DNA of 64,000 nucleotides from Flaviramulus sp. (GTDB lineage Bacteria; Bacteroidota; Bacteroidia; Flavobacteriales; Flavobacteriaceae): the NCBI RefSeq assembly GCF_013001275.1, contig NZ_JABDMV010000050.1, positions 1-64,000 of the forward strand, written 5' to 3'. Made by a program: the position numbers and the translations under genes. Under the pieces are notes generated by a model that was not told where the DNA came from, searched no databases, and saw only the letters and a program-made list of their open reading frames with translations. The stretch's first letter is position 1. Every line of letters starts with the position of its first letter. Of the stretch, positions 16,688 to 51,762 are shown piece after piece.

Positions 16688-16732
16688 ATTTTTATACGCA
16701 ACCATTTAAAAATTATCACATCTATTAATAAG

Positions 16733-17131
16733 ATGAATAAATCAATATTCAAATATTTTTTAGCGCCGCTATGTGTATTATTATTTTCCACACAATGTGA
16801 GGACGATATTGCGCCATTTAACCAAGAAGTTGAACAACAGGAACTAACTACACTAAAAGCTGAAATAGAAAATTTAGCCACTACTGCTATTTGTGATGAT
16901 ACTTTTGAATGTAAATTTATTGCTTTTGGTGCAAAGCCTTGTGGTGGCCCTTGGGGTTATTTGGTTTATTCTACTTCTATTGACACTGAGCTACTTGAAA
17001 GCTTAGTTGAAGGTTATAACCGAAAAGAAGCCATTTACAATACAACTTGGAATGTAGTTTCTGATTGTGCGTTTGCAACACCACCAGAAAGTGTAACCTG
17101 TGAAAATAACACCTGCGTTGCGATGTATTAA
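16733..17131 (+). CDS. Small cysteine-containing lipoprotein of unknown function
   Basis: A 132-residue predicted lipoprotein: a hydrophobic leader ends in STQC (C22) followed by EDD. The mature part has six further cysteines (in AICDDTFECKF, KPCGGPWG, VSDCAF and a C-terminal VTCENNTCVAMY), probably forming disulfides. I recognise it only as a flavobacterial hypothetical family. The adjacent start of plsC, 25 bases on, suggests possible co-transcription. Confidence 0.75.
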   Translation: MNKSIFKYFLAPLCVLLFSTQCEDDIAPFNQEVEQQELTTLKAEIENLATTAICDDTFECKFIAFGAKPCGGPWGYLVYSTSIDTELLESLVEGYNRKEAIYNTTWNVVSDCAFATPPESVTCENNTCVAMY

Positions 17132-47737: not shown

Positions 47738-47818
47738 GCTATACTAATGTTTTAAGGTTAAAGATTATTATTAAAATGCAAAAATACGATTTTAAAAGAA
47801 TGCTACAATATATCGGAT

Positions 47819-47851
47819 AAAAAAAGCACTTTAGTTGCCCAAAGTGCTTTT
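47819..47851 (-). terminator. Terminator-like hairpin between divergent trhO and recA
   Basis: AAAAGCACTTT (47822-47832) pairs perfectly with AAAGTGCTTTT (47841-47851) across an eight-base loop. On the minus strand it is followed by seven Ts, the form of an intrinsic terminator, yet the nearest gene upstream on that strand starts beyond it. It lies 82 bases before the trhO start, so it may be a leader attenuator or the end of an unannotated small RNA. Confidence 0.65.
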
Positions 47852-47963
47852 ATAATTTAGTTTGAGTTAGTCATCTTTTCAAACCATTTTTCGGAAATTC
47901 ATAGCAAAGTCTTTCCGCTTTTATTACTAGATGCAAAAAGTATAAAAAGGTTGCGTTATAAAA

Positions 47964-49025: not shown

Positions 49026-49055
49026 CATATGTTTCTGCTAAATAACTTAATTGAT

Positions 49056-49083
49056 AAAAAATCCCGTTTCTACGGGATTTTTT
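49056..49083 (+). terminator. Strong rho-independent terminator after recA
   Basis: A 12-base stem AAAAAATCCCGT (49056-49067) with ACGGGATTTTTT (49072-49083), four-base loop, with the terminal Ts acting as the U tract. Confidence 0.9.
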
Positions 49084-49160
49084 AATTTTATACGCAACCT
49101 ATTCAATATCTGCGCATCTAATAAGTGCAAACATGTAATTAACCCCCATATTTATTTGTC

Positions 49161-49571
49161 ATGAAAAGATTTATTGTAATTTGTATGACGTTCATGCTAC
49201 TAATATCGTGTAGCCTGAATGATGATTCTACAAATTATAGTTTTGAAGTTTTACCTGTTGAAAGTGTAGATATTCCAGATGAGTTTGAATTAGGAAATAC
49301 ATATTCTATTACGGTTCATTATGAAAAGCCTTCAACATGTCACGGATTTAAAGAGTTTTATTATTATAAAGAAAACAACGAGAGAACTGTGGCTCCAATA
49401 ACGGTTGTTTTTGAAAATAATGATTGTGAAACACTTGAAAACCATACGGCTGAAGCTACGTTTAATTTTATAGTAACCAGCAATGGCTCATATATTTTTA
49501 AGTTTTGGCAAGGTGAAGATACTAATGGAGAGGCACAATATTTAATTATTGAAGTGCCTGTTACAGAGTAA
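49161..49571 (+). CDS. Small lipoprotein of unknown function (136 aa)
   Basis: A 136-residue exported lipoprotein: hydrophobic leader ending LISC (C17), then SLNDD. The mature part looks like a single beta-sandwich (ITVHYEKPSTCHGFKEFYYYKEN, EATFNFIVTSNGSYIFKFWQG, and terminal EYLIIEVPV-type strand). Two cysteines, in STCHG and NDCET, could form a disulfide. I recognise no family. It precedes an ECF sigma factor by 20 bases and could be in the same transcript, but its role is not inferable. Confidence 0.75.
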   Translation: MKRFIVICMTFMLLISCSLNDDSTNYSFEVLPVESVDIPDEFELGNTYSITVHYEKPSTCHGFKEFYYYKENNERTVAPITVVFENNDCETLENHTAEATFNFIVTSNGSYIFKFWQGEDTNGEAQYLIIEVPVTE

Positions 49572-49591: not shown

Positions 49592-50146
49592 GTGTTTGAA
49601 TTGAGTTTAAAACAACTCATAGAAAATTGTAAAATTGATGATACTAAAGCTCAGAGTGAATTATATAAACTCTTTTCGAGTAAATTATTCGCTATATGCT
49701 TAAAGTATTCGCGAAACTATGCTGAAGCCGAAGATAATTTACAAGATGCGTTTTTAACAATTTTTAATAAAATTGAACAGTATAAAAATAAAGGCTCTTT
49801 TGAAGGTTGGCTAAAACGTATTACAATAAATACAGCATTGCAACGCTACCGAAACGAAAAAGTTTTTGATATTATAAATGAAAACACCATTGAGGATGTT
49901 GAAATAGAAGTTGAGGAAGAGAATATTTCTATCGATTATCTATTAAAAATCATTCAAGAATTGCCAGATAGATACCGGTTAGTTTTTAACTTATATGTAT
50001 TAGATGGTTATTCACATAAAGAGATAGCAAATATGCTTAACATTCACATTGGTACTTCAAAATCTAATCTCGCACGAGCAAGGCAAATTTTGAAGCAAAC
50101 TATTGAAAATTATAAAATTAAGCAACAACATTCACAATCATTATAA
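49592..50146 (+). CDS. ECF-family RNA polymerase sigma factor
   Basis: A 184-residue sigma-70 factor of the ECF type, with sigma2 (LFAICLKYSRNYAEAEDNLQDAFLTIFNKIEQYK, then GSFEGWLKRITINTALQRYR) and sigma4 (LPDRYRLVFNLYVLDGYSHKEIANMLNIHIGTSKSNLARARQILK). The start codon is GTG at 49592; no ATG is present near the N-terminus. The TAA shares its last base with the ATG of the following gene, a membrane protein with an anti-sigma-like N-terminus, so the two are a coupled sigma/regulator pair. Confidence 0.93.
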   Translation: MFELSLKQLIENCKIDDTKAQSELYKLFSSKLFAICLKYSRNYAEAEDNLQDAFLTIFNKIEQYKNKGSFEGWLKRITINTALQRYRNEKVFDIINENTIEDVEIEVEEENISIDYLLKIIQELPDRYRLVFNLYVLDGYSHKEIANMLNIHIGTSKSNLARARQILKQTIENYKIKQQHSQSL

Positions 50147-51675
50147 TGAGTGATAAAAAACATATTGACAGACTTTTCCAGGAGGGCTTAAAAGATTTTG
50201 AAGCAACACCTAATAAGGCTGTTTGGAATAATATTGAAGCAAAGCTTATTCAAAAAAAGAAAAAGCGACGTATTGTCCCTATCTGGTGGCGTTACGCTGG
50301 CGTTGCTGCTTTATTGTTGTTACTTTTAACTATTGGAGGTGTTTATTTTAACTCACCTGACGATTCTCAAACTATTCAAGTTGTTGACACAAAAAATGAT
50401 GGTACAGAAAAATCAAATTTAGAGATAATAAAGCCTATTGAAGATGTAGAAAACTCGTCTGAAATAAATACGGTTATTGCGAATGACGTGAGTTCAGAAG
50501 AAAATAATAACAAATCGAAAAAAGATACTAATAAAGCCGTTTTAAAAATTTTAAAACTTTCTAACGAAACATCAATTGCCGGAAGTTCAACTTCAAAAAA
50601 TAAAAACGAAAGCAATGTTAATTTGCCTTTAAATAAGGCGTCGAATGCAAAAAACAAACTTATAAATACGAACACATATAATGCTGTTGCAAAGCTTAGT
50701 GAAAAAGAAGCAAATACTAATGTAAGTTTTCGAAATAAAACAAATAACACTAATGTAATAGCTTCATCGACGGATAAAACAGGAGACAGTTCAATTAAAA
50801 ATGATGAGAACTTAATCAATAAAGAAGACGATGAAAGTTTATTTAAAAATTCTTCTCAAGAAAACAACACAAGTATTGCGTCTACAAAAAAAGATGAACC
50901 AAAAAACAATGCGCTGACCATTGAAGAAGCCATAGATAAAACTAACAATATTATTGAAGAAGAAAACCAAAACAGATGGAGTATTGCTCCAAATGCTGCG
51001 CCTGTTTATTTTAACTCTTTAGGTGAAGGTTCTTCAATCGATCCGCAATTTAATAGAAACTCAAAAAGCGGTGAACTTAATATGAGTTATGGTCTTTCAG
51101 CTAAGTATACTTTAAATAATAAAATAAGTATTCGTTCAGGAATTAACAGGGTAAATTTAGGCTATAATACTAATGATGTAATTGTTTTTCAATCTGTAGG
51201 CGTTAGTAGTAGTTCATTGCAAAATGTTAACAATTCAGGCGACGATGATGTTTCCATAATTAGTGCAGAAAGTATAAATTCTGCGAAGTCATTAGAATCT
51301 TTTACTACAACTAACACCACTATAAATCAGACTTTAGGATACATTGAAATACCATTAGAAATTCAATATATTCTATCTGATAAAAAATTAGGTATTAATG
51401 TAATTGGCGGTTTTAGTTCATTCTTTTTAAGTAATAATGAAATAATTTCTGAAGCCGAAAATGGTAATCGATCGTTTTTGGGTGAAGCAAATAATATTAA
51501 TAAAATAAGCTATAGTGCAAATTTTGGTTTAGGTTTAAATTATCAGGTCTCAAAAAAAATAGACTTGAATTTAGAGCCTATGTTTAAATATCAAATCAAT
51601 ACATTTAAAAATACATCTGGTAGTTTTACGCCTTTTTTTATAGGTGTTTATACTGGTTTTGCTTTTAAGTTCTAG
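50146..51675 (+). CDS. Membrane-anchored partner of the ECF sigma factor with C-terminal beta-barrel-like domain
   Basis: A 509-residue protein with a short cytoplasmic N-terminus like an anti-sigma region (DRLFQEGLKDFEATPNKAVWNNIEAKL), a basic stretch, one membrane helix (about 48-68), a long Asn/Ser/Lys/Glu-rich low-complexity linker (about 75-270), and a C-terminal domain (275-509) with the strand pattern of outer-membrane beta-barrel proteins (SYGLSAKYTLNNKISIRSGINRV to FFIGVYTGFAFKF). If the barrel enters the outer membrane, one chain would bridge both membranes. Its coupling to the sigma gene suggests signal transduction. Confidence 0.75.
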   Translation: MSDKKHIDRLFQEGLKDFEATPNKAVWNNIEAKLIQKKKKRRIVPIWWRYAGVAALLLLLLTIGGVYFNSPDDSQTIQVVDTKNDGTEKSNLEIIKPIEDVENSSEINTVIANDVSSEENNNKSKKDTNKAVLKILKLSNETSIAGSSTSKNKNESNVNLPLNKASNAKNKLINTNTYNAVAKLSEKEANTNVSFRNKTNNTNVIASSTDKTGDSSIKNDENLINKEDDESLFKNSSQENNTSIASTKKDEPKNNALTIEEAIDKTNNIIEEENQNRWSIAPNAAPVYFNSLGEGSSIDPQFNRNSKSGELNMSYGLSAKYTLNNKISIRSGINRVNLGYNTNDVIVFQSVGVSSSSLQNVNNSGDDDVSIISAESINSAKSLESFTTTNTTINQTLGYIEIPLEIQYILSDKKLGINVIGGFSSFFLSNNEIISEAENGNRSFLGEANNINKISYSANFGLGLNYQVSKKIDLNLEPMFKYQINTFKNTSGSFTPFFIGVYTGFAFKF

Positions 51676-51730: not shown

Positions 51731-51762
51731 AAAAAACTGCTCGTCCCCTCGAGCAGTTTTTT
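51731..51762. terminator. Bidirectional terminator
   Basis: A 13-base perfect stem, AAAAAACTGCTCG (51731-51743) with CGAGCAGTTTTTT (51750-51762), six-base loop. With A and T runs on both sides it can end the sigma-factor operon and the convergent plsC gene. Confidence 0.88.

Follow-up and report, generated by a model that had tools for sequence, protein, structure and literature searches.

The stretch of DNA analysed here (the window, 64,000 nucleotides from Flaviramulus sp.) carries a three-gene unit between recA and a plsC-like gene, encoding a small lipoprotein, a sigma factor and a partner protein (Table 1). A sequence-only reading had placed an ECF sigma gene and its partner at 49592-51675, and both the coordinates and the assignment of the sigma factor proved correct: its product matched the two Pfam sigma domains, Sigma70_r2 (E 1.5e-14) and Sigma70_r4_2 (E 2.5e-16), and belongs to the ECF factors in general (Pfam, NCBIfam TIGR02937). 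Translation may begin at GTG 49592 or at TTG 49601, of which the TTG fits most homologues (MSL...). The sigma and partner reading frames overlap by one base, at 50146.

Table 1. Features of the lipoprotein-sigma-partner locus and of related motif sites in the window.
Feature	Position	Strand	Remarks
Motif copy	16697..16723	+	before lipoprotein gene 16733-17131
Terminator-like hairpin before trhO	47818..47852	-	~77-110 nt past the second motif; custom hairpin rule; not in the general terminator scan
Motif copy beside recA	47929..47955	-	faces away from recA towards trhO; conserved in most loci
Terminator-like intrinsic hairpin closing recA	49055..49084	+	terminator scan, 13 pairs; sets recA apart from the operon
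Promoter motif CGCAACC-N16-ATCT	49093..49119	+	ECF-type, conserved; ends ~42 nt 5' of the lipoprotein ATG
Small lipoprotein gene	49161..49571	+	136 aa; lipobox ...ISC-SLNDDS; beta-sandwich-like AlphaFold model, pLDDT 86
ECF sigma gene	49592..50146	+	184 aa; Sigma70_r2, Sigma70_r4_2; TIGR02937 above cut-off
Dma-type partner gene	50146..51675	+	509 aa; putative two-membrane anti-sigma factor
Cytoplasmic N-domain, putatively sigma-binding	50146..50280	+	residues 1-45; two helices in model; KKKKRR before membrane helix
Inner-membrane helix	50281..50349	+	residues 46-68; hydropathy, helix in model
Periplasmic tether	50350..50973	+	residues 69-276; low confidence over 72-254; short helix 259-272
Predicted eight-stranded outer-membrane beta-barrel	50974..51672	+	residues 277-509; AlphaFold, Foldseek, OMP_b-brl
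Terminator-like intrinsic hairpin 3' of operon	51731..51762	+	terminator scan

We found the partner next to an ECF sigma gene in all 81 loci compared, with the same domain order throughout, an arrangement far beyond chance; the neighbouring sigma factor is presumably its cognate factor. The full order of lipoprotein, sigma factor and partner was kept in 79 of the 81 (the upstream lipoprotein is missing in L047 and L061), and the most fitting reading of the locus is a lipoprotein-sigma-Dma operon of flavobacteria, with a gene order like that of nigD-ecfO-reo, retained in about 80 Flavobacteriaceae. The lipoprotein itself satisfied the lipobox rule in 79/79 homologues; it gave no confident Pfam or PDB match, and no PDB fold matched below E 0.001. 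We rejected its identification as NigD, since it scored 14.5 bits against a family cut-off of 60; its best matches to NCBIfam NigD1/NigD2 had E values of 0.019-0.023, and weak matches were seen in 6 of 45 members.

The partner was described from its sequence as having a cytoplasmic anti-sigma-like start, a single membrane helix and an Asn/Ser-rich linker of about 200 residues, and all three parts were recovered. There is one hydrophobic segment (~46-68) and no second one in the 81 homologues, and an AlphaFold2 model, built on an alignment of 56 sequences, has helices at 4-14, 24-36 and 46-68 and a pLDDT below 50 over 72-254. Positive residues beside a membrane helix mark its cytoplasmic side (the positive-inside rule), so that the KKKKRR directly before the helix suggests an N-terminus in the cytoplasm. 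Among the 56 aligned homologues mean pairwise identity was 73% in the charged N-domain (1-45), 62% in the barrel and 19% in the linker, the most divergent part. The linker (69-276, ~208 residues) is of low complexity and rich in N, S and K; its length of 164-298 residues in these homologues corresponds, by simple arithmetic, to a contour of 59-107 nm, ample for the periplasm. The 45-residue N-domain matched no named anti-sigma family and gave weak DUF4179 matches in 7 of the 56; as nothing in the PDB was convincing either, we rejected its assignment to a known anti-sigma domain.

For the C-terminal 233 residues the model shows eight strands, at 277-507, with high confidence. Both ends of the modelled barrel lie on the same side, where the turns are short, and the opposite loops are longer, as in OmpA. 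The best Foldseek matches in the PDB include OmpA, NspA, OmpW and Ail (OmpA 9fzd, E 4.7e-7), with TM-scores, normalised by target, of up to 0.67; OMP_b-brl matched 49 of 56 members at E up to 0.1, and the last residue is Phe in 81/81 homologues. By these predictions the C-terminal domain is an OmpA/OmpX-like barrel with short periplasmic turns and long outer loops, which bears out the outer-membrane character proposed for it earlier; the soluble fold that would have spoken against it did not appear.

A predicted outer-membrane barrel at the C-terminus could also mean that the partner is simply an outer-membrane protein that loses its hydrophobic segment as a signal peptide and neighbours the sigma gene by chance. 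We consider this very improbable: the helix is preceded by a conserved, charged stretch of 45 residues, far beyond the n-region of a signal peptide and 73% identical across genera; the sigma and partner genes overlap or abut in nearly all of the 81 loci; and the same N-domain and helix occur beside sigma genes without any barrel. The last of these arrangements was found in distant Bacteroidota, where proteins of 216-263 aa (and one of 369 aa, L186) have a homologous N-domain and helix (hhalign 98.7%). In 10 of the 11 loci of this kind that were read (L177, L179, L181, L186, L251-L255 and L257; the exception is L256), the short anti-sigma-like gene is directly followed by a separate barrel-type gene with a signal peptide; two of these barrels were confirmed by Pfam and the others judged by eye. 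Homology between the fused barrel and those of the split loci was not supported (hhalign probability 16%); it is gene order, not sequence, that suggests the barrel to be part of the system. The split loci suggest that barrel and anti-sigma factor can work as partners in trans.

A further alternative grants the chain its role as sigma regulator but makes the barrel no more than an anchor, with sensing done by the tether in the periplasm or by the lipoprotein of the operon. The lipoprotein gene directly upstream in 79/81 loci, the occurrence of either a lipoprotein or a small secreted protein in several of the more distant loci, and a partly conserved helix in the tether before the barrel would all fit such an arrangement. 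However, L047 and L061 do without the upstream lipoprotein, and much of the barrel, outer loop 4 included, is highly conserved, more than a bare anchor needs. We regard an anchoring role alone as possible but rather unlikely, and favour a barrel that takes part in sensing.

The motif CGCAACC-N16-ATCT was present, at fixed spacing, in the proximal upstream region of the operon in 81/81 loci. The genome of the window contains the exact motif five times and the reversed one not at all; across 41 genomes the reversed motif and a motif with spacing one base longer both gave 0 sites. With a matrix built from the 81 operon sites, and a cut-off of at least 16 chosen after the scores were seen, 22 of the 24 genomes in which Dma was matched over its full length had sites, vs 2 of the 28 others (Fisher p 3e-10, the genomes not being independent). 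Both exceptions among the latter, G029 (17.0) and G080 (18.7), have single sites, and positive genomes reach best scores of 16.6-36.9; G068 has a full Dma match without an exact motif. This co-occurrence is confounded by shared ancestry. We infer that the Dma-linked sigma factor reads CGCAACC-N16-ATCT. The motif might instead be read by a different ECF factor, the Dma-linked one having another target sequence, and the genome of the window does contain roughly a dozen related sigma genes. We think this improbable, since all 81 operons carry the motif proximally upstream, since in loci lacking the lipoprotein (L141, L152, L268) it lies directly 5' of the sigma gene, and since it tracks the presence of the Dma protein.

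The motif marks a small predicted regulon. The five sites in the genome of the window precede the operon, the recA-trhO side, the lipoprotein gene 16733-17131, a lipoprotein gene on contig 42 and, on contig 4, a 28-aa membrane ORF. As a held-out test we searched 41 genomes of the family with a stricter pattern, and 27 had sites; 39 sites were read in genomes unused before, 8 of them belonging to the recA-trhO side or to the operon family itself. The remaining 31 comprised 25 sites before lipoproteins (24 by an automatic rule, L269 by eye), four before a single-helix ORF of 28-36 aa and two, both assigned by eye, before a protein of outer-membrane type. Of 614 background ORFs, drawn from 80 loci only, the automatic lipoprotein rule picked out 4.1%, a local background set here against genome-wide held-out sites. 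Genes behind earlier sites, named by eye, include glycosyltransferases (L147, L151), a SusD-like gene (L263) and SusC-like genes (L158, L209, L213). Just past their Cys the motif-linked lipoproteins are acidic, with a mean of 2.5 D/E in six positions vs 1.4 in 25 background lipoproteins; such acidic stretches resemble the surface-export signals of Bacteroidetes. The sigma-Dma operon of genome G088 encodes homologues of both lipoproteins that stand alone behind the motif in the genome of the window (39% identity, E 5e-26; 30%, E 1e-6), the product of 16733-17131 thus having a relative within a sigma-Dma operon, and a third lipoprotein of the G088 operon resembles, by eye, ones that follow motifs in L302 and L308. 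Literature searches on the motif and on flavobacterial anti-sigma factors of outer-membrane stress returned nothing useful; what is new here is the probable promoter sequence together with the probable target genes, most of which encode small lipoproteins of the outer membrane.

Two side observations were made in these surveys. G088 carries two more sigma-Dma-like pairs in tandem (L195:1711-5318), beyond its main pair. The 28-aa single-helix ORF (MKIILIISVLIxINLILLxFSVNKKTDP) is unannotated and lies ~25-30 nt past the motif in several genomes (L114:1550-1640, on contig 4 of the window's own genome, L261, L168, L296, L298 and L306), with longer, looser relatives in L130, L264 and L247.

Beside recA, the second motif is followed by a conserved leader in 72 loci, with a terminator-like hairpin before trhO in 71 of the 72 (custom rule). 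This hairpin suggests a short separate transcript, and because it intervenes, trhO itself is unlikely to be the target. An intact 30-aa ORF (MKFFK...NALGVSV...NSNCKADGG) is present in 15 loci, and no Rfam family scored above its gathering threshold in the region. The unit may encode a small RNA, or it may be a decaying microprotein gene.

Taken as a whole, the locus most probably encodes a two-membrane partner that regulates the sigma factor, whose regulon lies behind CGCAACC-N16-ATCT; within this explanation sigma binding, both membrane insertions, the signal and the release are the inferred steps. Binding of the sigma factor by this partner is suggested by gene order, the shared N-domain and studied relatives. 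At rest, the partner would hold the sigma factor at the inner membrane. A disturbed outer membrane, or a barrel disturbed in its assembly or integrity, would free it, by proteolysis of the tether or a conformational change, and the freed sigma factor would transcribe its own operon, a group of small outer-membrane lipoproteins and the membrane microprotein behind the motif. With sigma and anti-sigma factor under one promoter, the response may first amplify and then reset. A textbook parallel is RpoE-RseA of Escherichia coli, in which an autoregulated ECF factor, kept at the inner membrane, governs an outer-membrane stress output; RseA, however, has no barrel, and the outer-membrane signal there goes through separate proteins. 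More tentatively, and with less than even expectation, the Dma-type pair might serve Flavobacteriaceae as a general switch for outer-membrane stress, controlling family-wide small surface lipoproteins, a membrane microprotein of 28-34 aa and, as a regulatory RNA or peptide, the short transcript that runs divergently from recA to its terminator, the equivalent in Bacteroidota of the small-RNA arm of E. coli RpoE. The experiments on two-membrane anti-sigma factors that we found in the literature come only from Bacteroidales of the gut. A version conserved in Flavobacteriaceae, with a sharply defined promoter motif and lipoproteins as its predicted regulon, would point to an envelope-stress system common to Bacteroidota in general, and the motif would supply a reporter for finding the signal of the flavobacterial system.

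The sequence-only reading had called a single chain acting at the surface and on a sigma factor inside an unusual signal device. The predicted architecture agrees with this, and unusual it is, but the type is not new: single chains that span both membranes and regulate a sigma factor are known from Bacteroides and Phocaeicola and have been described as Dma or Reo (PMC13088901, PMC9308784, PMC13114119). By its predicted architecture, rather than by sequence comparison with Dma1, the partner is a flavobacterial member of this Bacteroidota class of dual membrane-spanning anti-sigma factors. Dma proteins have an N-terminal sigma-binding domain, one membrane helix, a long disordered tether and a C-terminal barrel; in Bacteroides thetaiotaomicron Dma1 and Dma2 pair with Das1 and Das2, Dma2 lies in a three-gene operon and the output of Dma1 runs via NigD1 (PMC13088901). 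The window's partner appears to share the four-part architecture, and its gene likewise adjoins an ECF sigma gene; the operon, in contrast, lies between recA and plsC and encodes a different lipoprotein. Reo extends from the cytoplasm to the surface and controls a NigD regulon; for EcfO-Reo of Bacteroides fragilis and Phocaeicola vulgatus this includes three NigD surface lipoproteins and a glycosyltransferase of the LPS region, and the system is inducible by antibacterial toxins, which its authors read as outer-membrane stress (PMC9308784, PMC13114119). The consecutive locus numbers M0N98_03762 (nigD), 03761 (sigma) and 03760 (anti-sigma) imply that the three genes are neighbours (PMC9308784, PMC13114119). 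The operon of the window resembles EcfO-Reo in having a lipoprotein gene beside those of the sigma and anti-sigma factors and surface lipoproteins in its predicted regulon, and differs from it in that its lipoprotein is no clear NigD.
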